DNA of 64,000 bases from Oenococcus oeni DSM 20252 = AWRIB129 (GTDB lineage: Bacteria > Bacillota > Bacilli > Lactobacillales > Lactobacillaceae): assembly GCF_000372485.1 (NCBI RefSeq), contig NZ_AQVA01000010.1, positions 1-64,000 of the forward strand, read 5' to 3'. Position numbers and translations under genes: made by a program. Under the pieces are notes generated by a model. It was not told the origin of the DNA and did no database searches. It worked only from the letters and a program-made list of their open reading frames with translations. Shown in pieces: positions 4,294 through 29,511 of the stretch (position 1 is the stretch's first letter; each line of letters starts with the position of its first letter).

Positions 4294-4325
4294 CTTTCTC
4301 TCCTCCAAATTCAATCCAACCAAAT

Positions 4326-4363
4326 AAAAAACCTCCATTAATCGTTAACAGAGATTAATAGAG
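4326..4363 (-). terminator. Riboswitch-controlled terminator before the ABC operon
   Basis: Minus-strand hairpin CCTCTATTAATC / GATTAATGGAGG (one G-U-type mismatch) followed by six T. It stands between the lysine aptamer and the first gene, as expected for an OFF switch by transcription termination. Confidence 0.88.
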
Positions 4364-4403
4364 GTAAAAAGGCAATTTAAGTAAAGAAGATAAAATTCCC
4401 AAT

Positions 4404-4562
4404 TAATAGCACTCCCCGGATTGACCGAGACAGTCCATGCGGTTTTTCCACATGTCCCAACAAAGATTATATGCATTTATAATCTCGTTTCGGCGATAAC
4501 CCTTAGGACTGCTTCATCGTGAATACACACTCAGCAGTTTTTGTGATGATCGCGCCTCTATT
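4404..4562 (-). promoter_or_regulatory. Lysine riboswitch (L-box) aptamer
   Basis: The minus strand shows the conserved L-box landmarks in order: ATAGAGGCGCGATCATC at the 5' side, an internal GGGTTATCGCCGAA, the TTGTTGG and GGACATGTGG segments, ACTGTC, and the closing GGGGAGTGCTAT whose end pairs with the starting ATAG. It is followed by a terminator. It senses lysine and should stop transcription of the downstream importer when lysine is plentiful. Confidence 0.9.
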
Positions 4563-4589
4563 TTATTGCGGTTATTAGATTTCGAAAAA

Positions 4590-22241: not shown

Positions 22242-22256
22242 TAATCTATCATCCGT

Positions 22257-22416
22257 AATAGAGGTGCAAATGACATCATTAGTTTATTAGATAGTCCCTG
22301 CTAGGATCTAATAAATGAAAGGGGATTTTGCCGAAATCGATTGTATGAGCAGATACTTATCGATTGAGTCGTGGTTTAATAAATCACGGATTGTCACAGA
22401 GATGTGGAGTGCTAGG
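22257..22416 (+). promoter_or_regulatory. Lysine riboswitch (L-box) aptamer of the lysine operon
   Basis: Landmarks in order: ATAGAGGTGCAAATGACATC, then a stem ending GGGGATTTTGCCGAA, GAGTCGTGG, TTGTCACAGAG, and the closing TGTGGAGTGCTA that pairs with the initial TAG. It is the same class and order as at 4404-4562 on the other strand, but the peripheral stems differ, so it is not a recent copy. When lysine binds, the downstream hairpin forms and lysA-dap expression stops. Confidence 0.92.
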
Positions 22417-22439
22417 ACGGACAAACGAGTAAGCGTAAG

Positions 22440-22477
22440 CCTCCGTTTGTTTTGTTTAGCAAACGGAGGTTTTTATT
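22440..22477 (+). terminator. Lysine-riboswitch terminator containing the lysA ribosome site
   Basis: CCTCCGTTTG (22440-22449) pairs perfectly with CAAACGGAGG (22460-22469), followed by TTTTT. The 3' arm carries GGAGG, eight bases before the lysA ATG, so the hairpin can also mask translation initiation. ACAAACGAG just upstream (about 22421-22429) can pair with the 5' arm as antiterminator. Confidence 0.88.
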
Positions 22478-23761
22478 ATGCAAATAAAAAATAATCAACT
22501 ATATATTGGCGGTGTTTCAGCAGACCAAATCGCCCAACAATTTGGAACGCCGGTCTATGTTTACGATGTTGGCCAAATTCGTTCAATTATCAGCGACATG
22601 AAAGAAGCTTTTGATGCTGAAAAGCTTAACTACCAAATTAGTTATGCCAGCAAAGCTTTCTCGACAGTCGCAATTTACGACGTCTTAAAGCATGAGATAA
22701 TTCATTGCGATGCGGTTTCTGGAGGTGAAATAGCAACGATCGCCAAAGCCGGCTTTCCGATGAAGAATGTTTCTTTTAATGGCAATAATAAATCCGCCGA
22801 TGAATTGATGATGGCGATCGACTATAAAATCGGCACAATTATTGTTGATAATTTTCATGAACTGGATTTGTTGAATGAAATTCTTAGCGAAAGAAAAATA
22901 TCTCAAAATGTTCTGATGCGGATAAGCCCGGGAATTTCTGCCCATACACATAAATTTATCTCAACTGGACAGCAGGACAGCAAATTTGGCTTTGATTTGG
23001 CTTCTGGTCAGGCGAAAAAAGCTTTTGATAAAATTCAGGCTTCCGAATATCTCAATTTATTGGGCTTGCATGCTCATATTGGTTCACAAATTTTTGAAAG
23101 CAGTGGTTATTCAAAACTAGTTGATTTGTTGATTAAAACCGCAAGCAAATGGCATTTTCAAGCAGAAATAATTGATGTGGGCGGTGGTTTCGGCATCAAA
23201 TATACTGACGCGGACGACCCGATTCCAAATGCTGAATTTATTCATTTGATCTGTCAAACGGCTAAAGCTTCCAGTCGAAAATATCATGCTAAATTACCAG
23301 AAATTTGGGTCGAACCCGGGCGCTCTATTGTCGGCCCGGCCGGTTATTCACTTTATACAATTGGTGGTCGCAAAGATATTCCTGGTATTCGTTCCTATCT
23401 GTCGGTTGATGGCGGAATGGGGGACAATATTCGTCCAGCGCTTTATCAAGCAGAATACAAAGCTGTTCTGGTCGACCAAGTCGATCTCCCTAGTGAACAG
23501 GTTGTCCGAATAGCCGGAAAATATTGTGAGTCAGGAGATGTCCTAATTCAAAAGCAGGAATTGCCCAAAACTTATCCCGGAGATTTACTGGCTGTTTTGG
23601 CAACCGGAGCTTATGGCTATTCGATGGCCTCCAATTATAATAGAAATCCACGCCCGGCGGTTGTTTTTGCGGAAAAAGGCAAGGCGAAATTAGTTGTTAA
23701 ACGAGAGACTTATGAAGATATAACCCATCTTGATTTAAATTACGAGGTAGAAAATGACTGA
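22478..23761 (+). CDS. lysA: Diaminopimelate decarboxylase
   Basis: 427 residues, fold-III PLP enzyme. Schiff-base Lys in [22 protein letters not shown], the glycine-rich phosphate loop [23 protein letters not shown], and the partner Cys in [10 protein letters not shown]. It decarboxylates meso-diaminopimelate to L-lysine, the last step of the pathway and the source of peptidoglycan lysine. It is the first gene of the riboswitch operon, which places the final enzyme first. Its end overlaps dapH by 8 bp. Confidence 0.95.
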
Positions 23762-24455
23762 ATTAGACGCACAAAAAATAATCGATTTTATTGCTAACTC
23801 AAAAAAACAAACAGCAGTTAAAGTTACTTATAAAGGTCATTTGAATGGCCGAATTCCTACTAGTATCCAAAATTTTTCCAATTCCGATTTTGGAATCCTT
23901 TACGGCGATTGGAGTGATATTAAGCCGCTATTGTCCGGTCTTAACAAAAAAGATTATTTAATTGAAAACAATGCCCGTAATTCGGCGGTTCCTTTGCTCA
24001 ATATTAAAGATATCAATGCGCGAATAGAACCGGGGGCAATTATCCGCGATCAGGTAAAAATAGCAGATAATGCTGTCATCATGATGGGAGCTGTGATCAA
24101 TATCGGGGCCGAAATAGGAGAGGCGACAATGATTGATATGGGTGCTGTTTTGGGTGGCCGGGCAATTGTTGGCAAACATTCTCATATTGGCGCCGGAGCA
24201 GTTTTGGCTGGCGTTGTCGAACCAGCCTCTGCGCAGCCTGTCCGTGTTGGTGACAATGTTTTAATCGGAGCCAATGCGGTTATTATCGAGGGAGTTCAAA
24301 TTGGCGATGGTGCGGTTGTCGGTGCCGGAGCGGTTGTCATTAACGATGTGCCTGCTCATACGGTTGTGGCTGGCGTTCCTGCTAAAGTTATTAAACAAAT
24401 CGATGAAAAGACAGAAAATAAAACAGCCCTCATTGATGCCTTAAGGAGCCTTTGA
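23754..24455 (+). CDS. dapH: Tetrahydrodipicolinate N-acetyltransferase
   Basis: 233 residues. A short N-terminal domain precedes a left-handed beta-helix of hexapeptide repeats ([35 protein letters not shown] and onward). It acetylates L-2,3,4,5-tetrahydrodipicolinate using acetyl-CoA, which marks the acetyl branch of lysine synthesis as in Bacillus. It overlaps lysA and touches dapL (TGATG), so the operon is tightly coupled. Confidence 0.94.
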
Positions 24456-25603
24456 TGCTTAGTGACGAGCAGTTAATCAAAATTCGCCGGCATCTTCATG
24501 CTAATCCGGAAATCGGTATGCAGGAAGTAAAAACGCATCAGTTTTTGCTGGAACAGATTGCAAAATTTCCGCAAGAAAATTTGACAATTGAAACGATTTC
24601 AGAAATACCAACGGCGCTTTTAGTTCGGATCGCTGGATCAGATCCAAAGAGGACAATTGCTTTGCGGACTGATATGGATGCTTTGCCGATTCAAGAAGAG
24701 ACTGGTTTGGATTTTGCCAGTAAAAACGATCATGTTATGCATGCCTGTGGCCACGATATTCATATGACAGTCGCGCTTGGTATTCTCTCTTATTTCGCCG
24801 AGCATCAGCCAAAAGATAATTTATTAGTATTTTTCCAGCCGGCCGAGGAAAACGAATTCGGTGGCAAGCGTTTCTATGACGCCGGTGGTTTTCAGGGTGA
24901 ATATCTTCCTGACGAATTTTATGCTCTGCATGTTAACCCACAGCTGCCGGCTGGCCAGATCGCCAGTCGCAAAGGGACGCTCTTTGCCGGTTCAAATGAA
25001 CTGCGTATCAGTTTTATCGGCAAGTCCGGCCATGCCGCTTATCCACAAAATGCTAAGGATTCAATTGTTGCAGCAGCGAATTTTGTTACGAATGTTCAGA
25101 CGGTGGTCTCTCGGAATGTCGATCCTATTGAAGGTGGTGTCGTCACGATTGGTAAATTTAATGCTGGAAAAGCGATGAATATTATTGCCGGAAAGGCAGA
25201 CATTGAGGGGACAATCCGCAGCTTTACCCAATCTGGCATGGAAATTATGACAAAACATATACGCATGATTGCCGAGGGCATTGCTGGCGCCTTTGGCCAG
25301 GAATTGAAGATTAATTTTCGTCAGGGCGGTTATATGCCGGTCGTTAATGATGAACGAACGACAAACTTTTTTATCGATTATATGAAAAATGCCGATGGAG
25401 TTGATTTCAAAATTGTCCAACCGGCGATGATTGCTGAAGATTTTGGTTTTCTTTCGAATCAATTTGAGGGAACAATGTGTTGGTTGGGTGTTAACGACCC
25501 TAAGCACAGTTTGCATTCTGACCATTTAAATCCGGATGAATCAGCAATCACAAAGGGCGTTGAGGCCATAAAGGGCTTTTTGATAGCGAGGATGCAAAAA
25601 TGA
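24455..25603 (+). CDS. dapL: N-acetyldiaminopimelate deacetylase (M20 family)
   Basis: 382 residues of the M20D amidohydrolase family: RRHLHANPEIGMQE, metal ligands in MHACGHDIHM and PAEENEFGG, and the late His in SLHSDHLNPDE. It removes acetate from N-acetyl-LL-diaminopimelate. The operon position, between dapH and dapA, separates it from related hippurate-type hydrolases. I take ATG 24455 rather than TTG 24452; AAGGAG lies upstream and the start overlaps the dapH stop. Confidence 0.92.
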   Translation: MLSDEQLIKIRRHLHANPEIGMQEVKTHQFLLEQIAKFPQENLTIETISEIPTALLVRIAGSDPKRTIALRTDMDALPIQEETGLDFASKNDHVMHACGHDIHMTVALGILSYFAEHQPKDNLLVFFQPAEENEFGGKRFYDAGGFQGEYLPDEFYALHVNPQLPAGQIASRKGTLFAGSNELRISFIGKSGHAAYPQNAKDSIVAAANFVTNVQTVVSRNVDPIEGGVVTIGKFNAGKAMNIIAGKADIEGTIRSFTQSGMEIMTKHIRMIAEGIAGAFGQELKINFRQGGYMPVVNDERTTNFFIDYMKNADGVDFKIVQPAMIAEDFGFLSNQFEGTMCWLGVNDPKHSLHSDHLNPDESAITKGVEAIKGFLIARMQK

Positions 25604-26478
25604 CAAATTTACTAGAAAATACAAATTTATTGACAGCAATTATCACGCCGTTTGATAAAAACAATCGGATTGATTTTCAGGTTTATCGTCGTCTGATTGA
25701 TTCGCAAATTTCAGATGGAGTAAAAGGCTTCGTTATCTCTGGTACTACCGGTGAAGCACCGACTTTGAGCCACGATGAGAAAATTGAGTTATTTAAAAGA
25801 ACAGTTGATTTTGTGTCTGGAAGAGCGAAAGTGATTGTCGGCACTGGTTCCAATAATACAAAGGAAACTATCGAATTTACAAAAGAGGCGGGCCGGATTA
25901 ACGGAATCGATGCAGCGTTGATCGTCACGCCTTATTATAATAAGCCTGACCAGGCCGGCATGATTGCTCATTTTTCAACTATTGCTGACGAGAGCCCGCT
26001 TCCAATTGTTATTTATAATATTCCCGGTCGAAGTATATCTGCTTTAACGGTCGAATCGCTTTTAAAGTTGGCCGATCATCCAAATATTATCGCTGTTAAA
26101 CAGTGCAATTCCGATTATGATATGTCTGAATTAATCGAGCACGCTCCAAAAGATTTTCTCGTTTATACCGGAGAAGACGGGCAATCATTTTTAAATTATG
26201 CTCTTGGCGGCGCAGGGACAATTTCGGTTGCTTCACATTTTTATGCCAAGGAATTTGCTGATATGTTTTCCGCAATTGATAATGGAGATTTTAAAAAAGC
26301 AGCCGGAGATTTCCGTTTCATTAATCCGAGAGTTAAGGCACTTTTCAGTTATCCTTCGCCGGCCCCGGTAAAAGCTGTTTTTAAGCGTTCGGGAATTGAT
26401 GTTGGAATTCCCCGCTTGCCGATTCTTCCTTTGGACAAGGCACAGACTGATGGAATTATGCAGGTGTTAAAGCTATGA
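25600..26478 (+). CDS. dapA: 4-hydroxy-tetrahydrodipicolinate synthase
   Basis: 292 residues, TIM-barrel aldolase. GFVISGTTGEAPTLSHDEK and VGTGSNNTKETIEF are signatures, Tyr is in LIVTPYYNKPDQ, and the Schiff-base Lys is in IIAVKQCNSDYD (family usually KEAS/KDA). It condenses pyruvate with aspartate semialdehyde. A 4-bp overlap on both sides (ATGA) couples it to dapL and dapB. Confidence 0.95.
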   Translation: MTNLLENTNLLTAIITPFDKNNRIDFQVYRRLIDSQISDGVKGFVISGTTGEAPTLSHDEKIELFKRTVDFVSGRAKVIVGTGSNNTKETIEFTKEAGRINGIDAALIVTPYYNKPDQAGMIAHFSTIADESPLPIVIYNIPGRSISALTVESLLKLADHPNIIAVKQCNSDYDMSELIEHAPKDFLVYTGEDGQSFLNYALGGAGTISVASHFYAKEFADMFSAIDNGDFKKAAGDFRFINPRVKALFSYPSPAPVKAVFKRSGIDVGIPRLPILPLDKAQTDGIMQVLKL

Positions 26479-27233
26479 AATCAATTTTACTGGCTGGTGC
26501 TTTTGGAAAAATGGGTCGAGAGATCCAGAAGCTAATTGCCGAACATAAGGATTGGTCTTTAGACGCAATTTTGGTTCATGAACATTTTCCGGAAAATTAT
26601 TCCGGCAGGGCGAAAATTTTCCGGCAATTAAGTGAAATAAATCAACATTATGATCTTTGGATCGATGTAACGAAGCCGGATTCGGTCTTTGAAAATGCTG
26701 TCTGGGCGATTGAACATAATACTTCACTGATTATTGGTACTAGTGGTCTAAAAAACGATCAAATTACAAAGTTAAAGTCGCTTGCCGATAAGAATTCCGT
26801 TAGCGGCATTATTGCTCCTAATTTTAGTATTTCGGCGGTTTTAATGATGTATTTTTCCGGTATTGCGGCGAGATTTATGCCAAATGTTTCGATCGAAGAA
26901 ATTCATCATCCGGATAAGCTTGATGCTCCCAGTGGAACAGCCAGAATAACCGCCGGAATTTTGGCAGATAATGGGGCCAGCACGAAAACTGTTTCAACGT
27001 CAGCTGACGGCGATAAAAATATTATTGAAAAGGTTCTAATTACTTCCAAGCGAAAAAAAGACTATGTCGCCTATCAATCAGTGGATTTCGTTAATGAATA
27101 TGAAACTTTATCGATATCACAGAATAGTTTGGACCGTAAGTCTTTTATGCCTGGCGTTGAATTAGCAATCAAAAAAGCTAACCAACAGCAAGGTTTAGTT
27201 GTAGGATTAGATAAAATAATGGGGTTGAAATAA
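26475..27233 (+). CDS. dapB: 4-hydroxy-tetrahydrodipicolinate reductase
   Basis: 252 residues. The N-terminal NAD(P) motif is AGAFGKMGREIQ, IIAPNFSISAVLMM follows, and EIHHPDKLDAPSGTA contains the catalytic His-His and Lys of the DapB signature. It reduces the DapA product to tetrahydrodipicolinate. It is a few residues shorter than the E. coli enzyme, as is usual in Bacillota. Confidence 0.95.
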   Translation: MKSILLAGAFGKMGREIQKLIAEHKDWSLDAILVHEHFPENYSGRAKIFRQLSEINQHYDLWIDVTKPDSVFENAVWAIEHNTSLIIGTSGLKNDQITKLKSLADKNSVSGIIAPNFSISAVLMMYFSGIAARFMPNVSIEEIHHPDKLDAPSGTARITAGILADNGASTKTVSTSADGDKNIIEKVLITSKRKKDYVAYQSVDFVNEYETLSISQNSLDRKSFMPGVELAIKKANQQQGLVVGLDKIMGLK

Positions 27234-27238
27234 GTTAA

Positions 27239-28339
27239 ATGGTCAAAGAATACAATGTAGCAATTCTAGGTGCGAGTGGCGCAGTCGGTACAAGAATGCG
27301 CGAACAATTGGAACAATCGACAATTCCGGTCAAGTCACTGAAACTGTTGGCTTCCAATCGTTCGGCAGGTAAAAAAAGTACTTTCAGAGGAAAAGAATAC
27401 ACGATTGAAGAAACTAAACCGGAATCTTTTGACGGTATTGATCTGGTCTTATCTTCAGCCGGAGGATCGGTTTCCAAACGCTTTTTACCGGAAGCAGTTC
27501 GGCGTGGCGCAGTTGCAGTTGACAACACTTCATATTTTCGAATGGACAAAAACGTTCCATTAGTTGTTCCTGAAGTTAATTCCGGGGTTTTAAAGAATCA
27601 TCATGGGATAATTTCCAATCCAAATTGTTCCACGATTCAAATGGTTGTTGCCTTGAAACCCATTTTTGATGCTTTCGGTCTAAAACAGGTAATCGTTTCG
27701 ACTTATCAGGCAGCTTCCGGAGCTGGTCAATCTGCTTGGAATGAATTGGAAAGGGAAAGTTCCGAGTATTTAAAAGATCAAAAAATGCAGGCAAAAATTT
27801 TGCCTGTTAAGGGGGCTGAAAAGCATTATCCACTTGCATTTAATCTTTTACCACAAATCGATGTTTTTGAAGACGACGCTTATACTCACGAAGAATGGAA
27901 GATGATTCACGAAACGAAAAAAATTTTTTTTGATGACATGAATTCGTCTAAAATTAAAGTTACAGCTACAACTGTTCGTGTCCCTGTTCCGGTTGGCCAT
28001 GGCGAGACAGTCTACTTTCAAGTTGAAAAGGCTAATGAAGCTTCTGCTGAAGCAATTCAAAATGCGGTTGCCGATGGTGCTGGTTTGGTTTTGCAGGATG
28101 ACCCTTCACAACAACTTTATCCGCAGCCGATCAATGCGGCGGGCAAACGAGAAACATTCGTTGGCCGGATTCGTCCGGACTTAGAAAATGATGGCAGCTA
28201 CTGGATGTGGGTTGTTTCCGACAATCTTTTAAAAGGGGCAGCTTGGAATGCCGTGCAGATTGCCGAAGAACTTGTTAAAAAAGATCTTGTACGTGTTGCG
28301 GATCCGGAAAAATCATACGAAATGTATAAGGAGAACTAA
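27239..28339 (+). CDS. asd: Aspartate-semialdehyde dehydrogenase
   Basis: 366 residues. NADP-binding VAILGASGAVGTRM, active-site Cys in IISNPNCSTIQMVVAL and a C-terminal domain with TTVRVPVPVGHGE. It reduces aspartyl phosphate to the semialdehyde, the branch point to lysine, methionine and threonine. Being inside the lysine operon, it also makes supply to methionine subject to lysine control. The ATG follows the dapB stop by 5 bp with only a weak ribosome site, suggesting translational coupling. Confidence 0.94.
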   Translation: MVKEYNVAILGASGAVGTRMREQLEQSTIPVKSLKLLASNRSAGKKSTFRGKEYTIEETKPESFDGIDLVLSSAGGSVSKRFLPEAVRRGAVAVDNTSYFRMDKNVPLVVPEVNSGVLKNHHGIISNPNCSTIQMVVALKPIFDAFGLKQVIVSTYQAASGAGQSAWNELERESSEYLKDQKMQAKILPVKGAEKHYPLAFNLLPQIDVFEDDAYTHEEWKMIHETKKIFFDDMNSSKIKVTATTVRVPVPVGHGETVYFQVEKANEASAEAIQNAVADGAGLVLQDDPSQQLYPQPINAAGKRETFVGRIRPDLENDGSYWMWVVSDNLLKGAAWNAVQIAEELVKKDLVRVADPEKSYEMYKEN

Positions 28340-29511
28340 TGCCAGAATTAAAAGAGGGCGTCATTAATAGTGTTCGATCGGATGTTAGAAACATTACGAC
28401 CAATAAAATTCGTGCTGTTGATATGGAATTCCGCAAAATTGACGGACTACTTCGTTTAACATTGGGTGAGCCCGACTTCAATGCTCCGGAATTAGTTAAG
28501 AAGGCGATGATTAAATCGATTGAAGATAATGAATCGCATTATTCAACTGCGCGTGGATCAATTGAATTTTTAAAAGCGGCAGCTGATTTTTTAAAGCGTA
28601 ATTACGATTTAAATTACGATCCGAGGACCGAAATTTTGTCGACAGTTGGATCGACCGAAGCGATTTTTTCAAGTTTATCAACGATTTTAGAAGAAGGTGA
28701 TGAACTTTTGGCACCTTCGCCGGCCTATCCTCTTTATGAACAGCTTGCTCATGTTAACCATACGAAAATGGTTTATATTCCGACCAATGATACGAATTTT
28801 GTTTTAACTCCCTCTAAACTGCAGAATGCAATCGAGCAGCATCCACGGGCAAAGGCAATCGTTTTGACCTACCCAAACAATCCGACTGGTGTCGATTATT
28901 CTGTTGAACAGCTAAAAGAGCTTGCCACTGTAATTGCCAAGACTAATTTATTAGTTGTTTCCGACGAGATTTATTCAACGCTTAATTATGTCGGAAAACA
29001 TGTTTCGATTGCTTCATTGCTTCCGGAACAGACGATTGTTTTAAATGGTGTATCCAAATCCCATGCGATGACAGGAGACAGAATTGGTTTTGTTGCAGCG
29101 CCAAGGGATTTAATCTCTCAAATTGTTAAAATTCATCAATTTGCAATCACGGCCGTTTCAAATCCAGCTATGGCCGGTGCAGTGGCTGCCCTGAATCAAG
29201 GGGATGCTCTGACTGAAAAAATGCGTCAGGAATATATGAAACGGCGTAATTATTTGATTCCGGAATTCAAAAAAATCGGTTTTGATGTAGCAGCCCCGGA
29301 TGGTGCTTTTTACCTTTTTTTGAAAATTCCTGCCGATCAAAACCAGGATGATTTTGCTTTTGCCAGGGAACTTGCCCATAAAGCTCTCGTCGGATTAATT
29401 CCCGGCTCTTGCTTTGGCCCTGGAGGAGAAGGATATCTGCGTTTGAGTTACGCTGCTTCTGAAGAGACTCTCCATGAAGCTTTGAGACGTTTACAAAATT
29501 ATTTGGCATAA
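28339..29511 (+). CDS. patA: Class I aminotransferase, probable N-acetyl-LL-diaminopimelate aminotransferase
   Basis: 390 residues, aspartate-aminotransferase fold: LTYPNNPTGVDYS, LVVSDEIYSTLNY, the PLP Lys in LNGVSKSHAMTGDRIGF, and RLSYAASEETL with the carboxylate-binding Arg. The lysine acetyl branch needs exactly one aminotransferase between dapH and dapL, and this last gene of the operon is the obvious candidate. A general aromatic or aspartate aminotransferase is the alternative. It overlaps asd by one base. Confidence 0.88.
   Translation: MPELKEGVINSVRSDVRNITTNKIRAVDMEFRKIDGLLRLTLGEPDFNAPELVKKAMIKSIEDNESHYSTARGSIEFLKAAADFLKRNYDLNYDPRTEILSTVGSTEAIFSSLSTILEEGDELLAPSPAYPLYEQLAHVNHTKMVYIPTNDTNFVLTPSKLQNAIEQHPRAKAIVLTYPNNPTGVDYSVEQLKELATVIAKTNLLVVSDEIYSTLNYVGKHVSIASLLPEQTIVLNGVSKSHAMTGDRIGFVAAPRDLISQIVKIHQFAITAVSNPAMAGAVAALNQGDALTEKMRQEYMKRRNYLIPEFKKIGFDVAAPDGAFYLFLKIPADQNQDDFAFARELAHKALVGLIPGSCFGPGGEGYLRLSYAASEETLHEALRRLQNYLA

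Follow-up and report, generated by a model that had tools for sequence, protein, structure and literature searches.

A lysine riboswitch in Oenococcus oeni with the lysA ribosome-binding site inside its predicted terminator hairpin

The lysA gene of Oenococcus oeni DSM 20252 (= AWRIB129) lies in a stretch of 64,000 nucleotides (nt; contig NZ_AQVA01000010.1, positions 1 to 64,000 of the forward strand), referred to here as the window, and its leader raises the question of whether a single RNA hairpin both stops transcription and closes the ribosome-binding site of the gene downstream. A first-pass annotation of the window had claimed a second lysine riboswitch at lysA, with GGAGG in the 3' arm of its terminator eight bases before the lysA ATG, and both claims were borne out (Table 1). 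We consider it likely that this leader is a lysine OFF-riboswitch with a dual expression platform, i.e. one that acts on transcription as well as on translation.

The aptamer matches the lysine riboswitch family RF00168 over its full length with 87.4 bits, against a curated score of 30; the match begins at 22251 and not at 22257, where the first-pass annotation had started the feature. It sits upstream of genes for lysine biosynthesis, identified with NCBIfam models as lysA, dapD, dapA, dapB and asd, and is predicted to bind lysine. The terminator hairpin that follows has 15 pairs in the terminator scan and a predicted energy of -21.7 kcal/mol. The GGAGG in its 3' arm is separated from the lysA ATG by the 8-nt spacer TTTTTATT; the 3' end of the 16S ribosomal RNA of the same genome bears the complement of this motif, and the pairing with GGAGGT is predicted at -8.7 kcal/mol. 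The leader combines two of the features of a dual platform as defined by Barrick and Breaker: an intrinsic terminator follows the aptamer, and its 3' side contains the ribosome site from which the next gene would be translated. Seven codons upstream of the ATG at 22478 stands an in-frame TAG, with no start between the two, and none of ATG, GTG or TTG occurs in the 29 codons after this ATG in the window sequence. As no other likely start is found nearby, the GGAGG within the hairpin is the only ribosome site at hand for lysA.

Table 1. Coordinates of the two lysine riboswitch loci in the window
Feature	Position	Strand	Evidence
Lysine riboswitch aptamer (RF00168), lysA copy	22251..22422	+	cmscan 87.4 bits, full model 1-182
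P1 3' strand, pairs with 22252-22261; 22415-22421 common to predicted antiterminator	22412..22421	+	fold
Predicted antiterminator 5' strand (P1 3' strand and linker), pairs with 22439-22457	22415..22434	+	fold of 22405-22458, pair list
Intrinsic terminator hairpin and start of U-tract; core stem 22440-22451 with 22458-22469	22437..22472	+	terminator scan, fold, pair counts
GGAGG ribosome site of lysA within terminator 3' arm (22458-22469)	22465..22469	+	sequence
lysA, diaminopimelate decarboxylase, first gene of putative lysine operon	22478..23761	+	TIGR01048 457.2 bits, cut-off 297.9
dapD (N-acetyltransferase), amidohydrolase, dapA, dapB, asd, aminotransferase; rest of putative operon	23754..29511	+	NCBIfam
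Lysine riboswitch aptamer, importer copy	4399..4568	-	cmscan 84.1 bits
Importer terminator hairpin, 3' arm also holds GGAGGT	4331..4365	-	hairpin -15.3 kcal/mol
Separate GGAGG ribosome site of importer gene (ATG 4293)	4302..4306	-	sequence

The burial of the lysA ribosome site is more than chance. At 0.003, its predicted accessibility is the lowest among 41 genes, for which the median is 0.35; this set was chosen by script from the non-overlapping genes of the window that have a ribosome site. For the hairpin and the bases that follow it (22440-22500) the folding z score is -5.82, none of 200 shuffled sequences being equally stable, and the longer segment 22405-22480 gives -3.51, with one equally stable shuffle in 200. 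The same layout is kept in all five Oenococcus lysA leaders found, in which the ATG follows the aptamer by 55 nt, an in-frame TAG stands seven codons 5' of it with no start in between, and the ensemble accessibility of the site ranges from 0.0002 to 0.0009. A five-sequence alignment of these leaders shows that all 12 stem pairs form in every sequence and that 11 of them are invariant; the one that varies, located at the site's second G, is C-G in two sequences, U-G in another two and U-A in the fifth.

These leaders come from a search of seven Oenococcus genomes. The five genomes in which both riboswitches were found all have both layouts, merged at lysA and separate at a predicted importer gene that carries the other copy; one of the remaining two (G005) gave no riboswitch match and the other (G006) a single one, apparently that of the importer, the completeness of these assemblies being 68 and 65%, respectively. 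A separate ribosome site precedes the ATG in all six Oenococcus importer leaders found, of which the five outside the window genome were recognized as importers by eye from their position and N-terminus.

The arrangement of alternative pairings suggests how such a platform might operate. P1 and the predicted antiterminator have seven bases in common, and antiterminator and terminator both use the 5' arm of the terminator in the predicted folds. Bound lysine would hold P1 and thereby deny 22415-22421 to the antiterminator, so that the hairpin at 22440-22469 would form and RNA polymerase would stop in the U-tract; in any RNA that is read through, the lysA ribosome site would be locked in the stem of the same hairpin. 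When lysine is scarce, the antiterminator would capture the 5' arm of the terminator during RNA synthesis, the polymerase would pass, and the GGAGG would be left free for the ribosome. Given the large predicted advantage in stability of the hairpin over the antiterminator, this choice would have to fall once, during transcription. Dual action is the expected reading for a platform of this kind and has been measured for the similar hairpin of plasmid pT181 discussed below.

Several results weigh against this interpretation. Fragment 22405-22458 folds into the antiterminator no better than its shuffled versions do (z -0.40; 62 of 200 at least as stable), and in a nascent leader ending at 22458, where the 3' arm is not yet made, the free ensemble is still favoured over the antiterminator by 2.6 kcal/mol. 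For the full-length leader the free ensemble (-76.4 kcal/mol) and the terminator ensemble (-76.3 kcal/mol) nearly coincide, with the antiterminator about 9 kcal/mol worse, so that the lysA site of the finished RNA is predicted to be closed at equilibrium even in the absence of lysine. A translational response to lysine would therefore need the antiterminated RNA to be kinetically trapped or the ribosome to be loaded first. Forcing the antiterminator to form frees the site only in part: it is 0.03-0.33 unpaired in an RNA that extends 23 nt into lysA, and 0.41-0.62 unpaired in one that extends 53 nt; all these values come from an energy model that leaves out tertiary contacts, kinetics and any ligand term. 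Covariation fails as proof of the stem: there is one varying pair, a result reached by 304 of 500 shuffles and hence not significant. In the leader with the U-A form (G003) the site itself reads GAAGG in place of GGAGG, which makes the predicted pairing to 16S weaker (-3.0 instead of -8.7 kcal/mol), so that here the stem appears to be preserved at the expense of the ribosome site. The contrast between two designs in one genome also calls for caution, in that the importer ribosome site is itself predicted to be mostly paired in the window genome (0.03 unpaired; the five other Oenococcus importer leaders give 0.34 to 0.58).

The dual platform has thus to be weighed against simpler explanations, the most serious of which is that the terminator does all the regulation, that the ribosome site came to lie within the stem through shrinkage of the leader, and that read-through transcripts at high lysine are too few to matter. 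Transcription attenuation is the dominant mode in Firmicutes (PMC2258182), the lysA terminator is strong by its fold statistics, and earlier work on pT181 placed the main level of control at transcription, the dual construct repressing transcripts by 84% and protein by 97% (PMC5435934). We nevertheless regard this explanation as unlikely: each of the five Oenococcus leaders has its site within this stem, and spontaneous opening is predicted to be so rare that some effect on read-through RNA would be hard to avoid.

The near-zero accessibility in the unconstrained ensemble, computed with no ligand term, would equally suit a leader in which the hairpin is present in every finished transcript at any lysine level, giving a low, fixed output of lysA and no translational response to lysine. 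This seems improbable, since the antiterminator strand is made before the 3' arm of the terminator and a bound ribosome would keep the site open, an order of events on which equilibrium energies are silent. Least credible, to the point that we give it almost no weight, is a chance overlap, with the GGAGG of the stem being no more than part of a normal terminator and lysA being translated from a different start or as a leaderless mRNA. The 3' arm of the importer terminator does contain a GGAGGT that is apparently unused; at lysA, however, the start-free surroundings of the ATG described above, the lack of a second strong site at the proper distance and the conservation of the layout in the genus all speak for actual use.

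The dual platform thus remains our preferred reading, and it would bear on more than one gene. Six further genes follow lysA closely, with overlaps of 8, 4, 4 and 4 nt, a 5-nt gap and a final 1-nt overlap at the successive junctions, and probably share a single transcript with it; one start among the seven lysine-pathway genes (22478-29511) is TTG, and the aminotransferase scores below the cut-off of its best NCBIfam model. These tight junctions suggest that translation of the later genes may be coupled to that of lysA. A promoter scan over 22.7-21.8 kb gave three sites where 2.8 are expected and was uninformative. As a tentative extension, the Oenococcus lysA hairpin might be so stable that only ribosomes loaded on nascent antiterminated RNA translate it, in which case a one-time decision would set both termination and translation for the whole seven-gene operon, with the importer remaining a leakier switch of the transcription type.

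The importer gene resembles a fused binding protein and permease, and its riboswitch suggests lysine as the substrate. No third RF00168 lysine riboswitch was found in the whole assembly (1.74 Mb in 28 contigs). The importer segment 4290-4365 folds with a z score of -1.72 (13 of 200 shuffles equally stable). A start listed for the gene at 4338 (minus strand) was not taken as real, as it sits inside the terminator; the reading frame is open through the terminator (4338-4293, minus strand), and an automatic caller would begin the gene within the hairpin. The first-pass annotation had held that the importer keeps terminator and ribosome site apart, which is correct as to position, the gene having its own GGAGG, and less so as to accessibility. 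The predicted partner of this site is a pyrimidine-rich linker near P1, and we considered whether the importer might be a hidden second dual switch. When the duplex of site and linker was compared with shuffled linkers, the window genome (L002) gave p 0.775, and we rejected this possibility, the pairing being compositional. The same comparison gave 0.505, 0.475, 0.325, 0.05 and 0.705 in the other Oenococcus importers (L004, L005, L007, L008 and L009, respectively), and p <0.05 in four of 90 other leaders, two of them <0.01.

How widespread the merged layout is was examined on the best 80 of 557 lysA loci. A lysine riboswitch was present in the stretch examined in 69 of them and absent in 11; in 10 of the 69 the distance from it to the lysA match downstream is about 1.2-1.3 kb. 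These 10 belong to Weissella and Periweissella (L154, L156, L157, L159, L160, L166, L174, L181, L189 and L201), and a different gene may head their operon. The closest named lysA among the best 80 is that of O. kitaharae strain CRBO2176. The remaining 59 leaders, one of them from O. kitaharae, were classified together with five further Oenococcus leaders, and the dual layout was found in six of these 64, all of them Oenococcus, with O. kitaharae counted twice (L011 and L152). In each of the 58 leaders from other Lactobacillaceae the ribosome site lies at least 11 nt beyond the terminator hairpin. The merger of terminator and ribosome site thus looks specific to Oenococcus among the Lactobacillaceae lysA leaders examined. 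The loci L214 and L198 bear on a record titled Faecalicatena absiana, in which lysA is as near to the query as the Lactobacillus ones are and a tRNA has the same score as in Lactobacillus nasalidis, pointing to contamination or transfer.

A second set of 110 Lactobacillaceae riboswitches comprised the 30 best-scoring matches and 80 of 120 further places among the matches listed, 39 of these taken in order of score (one near-duplicate being skipped) and 41 picked for spread across genera; it leans to high-scoring aptamers, more exist than were listed, and in some genomes it overlaps the first set. Of its members 108 could be classified, and the five flagged as dual by the script were all rejected on inspection. 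A census of 121 leaders allowed 119 to be classified, no start being found for L020 and L049, and 11 were flagged; starts picked more than about 200 nt downstream are doubtful in this census. Five of the 11 are the Oenococcus lysA leaders, and visual inspection led to rejection of the other six. For the Oenococcus importer L009 the script had taken an upstream TTG as the start and passed over the ATG, which has an AAGGAG of its own, and an upstream TTG had likewise been picked in L066 and L067 (in L065 a stop follows that TTG). In L065 and L099 a second hairpin had been picked, with their own GGGAG lying beyond the terminator, and in L094 the flagged hairpin reaches only -6.1 kcal/mol and a better terminator lies upstream. 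Four of these leaders (L065, L066, L067 and L099), all of one genus (g17), have, within 80 nt of the aptamer, a terminator with a GGGGC 3' arm followed by the U-tract and then GCCCC, which would allow an alternative hairpin to form in competition with the terminator.

Beyond the family, 30 loci were taken from 199 genomes of the phylum and 28 of them were classified; L263 is unreliable, and one, L244 (about 1677-1785 in G525, from another family), looks dual. In this leader CTCCTCC, a loop, GGAGGAG and a T run are followed immediately by ATG, and it is apparently an independent dual hairpin outside the Lactobacillaceae. Among the lysine riboswitches examined the dual design is thus rare and is common to Oenococcus, with apparently one or more separate origins outside this genus.

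Two copies of the same sensor thus coexist in one genome and differ in whether the ribosome site lies inside or outside the terminator. Together with the lysA leaders of relatives in which the parts lie apart, the importer copy offers a natural matched comparison for deciding whether the dual hairpin adds tighter repression or merely gives a shorter leader; and because the site is predicted to be closed at equilibrium, experiments can ask directly when the ribosome loads. No mention of an Oenococcus dual hairpin occurs in the titles and abstract openings among the records listed; an earlier description in a 2003 comparative paper on lysine regulation is possible.

In 2007 Barrick and Breaker gave the name of dual platforms to those whose terminator lies so near the gene that the ribosome site falls within its 3' side, and they state that the same categories of mechanism had been predicted for lysine riboswitches (PMC2258182). 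As these platforms are described there, the Oenococcus lysA leader shows no difference in kind from them (PMC2258182). A measured parallel is the repC attenuator of pT181, where, as at lysA, a terminator hairpin carries the ribosome site (here AGGAG) in its 3' half. In Escherichia coli the pT181 hairpin acted on both transcription and translation: repression rose from 85% to 98% with the native site in the hairpin, and part of the gain in the dual construct came from a higher ON level (PMC5435934). The spacing to the start is 12 nt in pT181 and 8 nt at lysA, and the trigger differs, being an antisense RNA on a plasmid with repC as its target in the one and a metabolite-type sensor, the aptamer, in the other (PMC5435934). 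The lysA leader is hence not a pT181-type attenuator, though by analogy it may work like one.

The E. coli lysC lysine riboswitch is not known to have a terminator. There, as predicted here, a lysine aptamer governs access to the ribosome site, with RNase E cleavage as the second output (PMC5584792). An O. oeni lysA-dapD-dapA-dapB-asd operon with a lysine riboswitch is already in print in the same article, i.e. the same sensor and kind of operon in the same genus; its two Oenococcus passages cover the operon and not the expression platform, and the words "terminator" and "Shine" do not appear in its text (PMC5584792). A terminator and a block of the ribosome site are likewise found in one leader at vmlR and tlrB (yxjB) of Bacillus subtilis, but there the trigger is a stalled ribosome, and the site is covered by a separate hairpin in vmlR and, in tlrB, by a distinct hairpin that shares its apex with the terminator (PMC9226507, PMC6851288). 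The class of mechanism is thus already known, and what the present analysis adds is a view of it across the genus Oenococcus, together with the difference from the importer copy.
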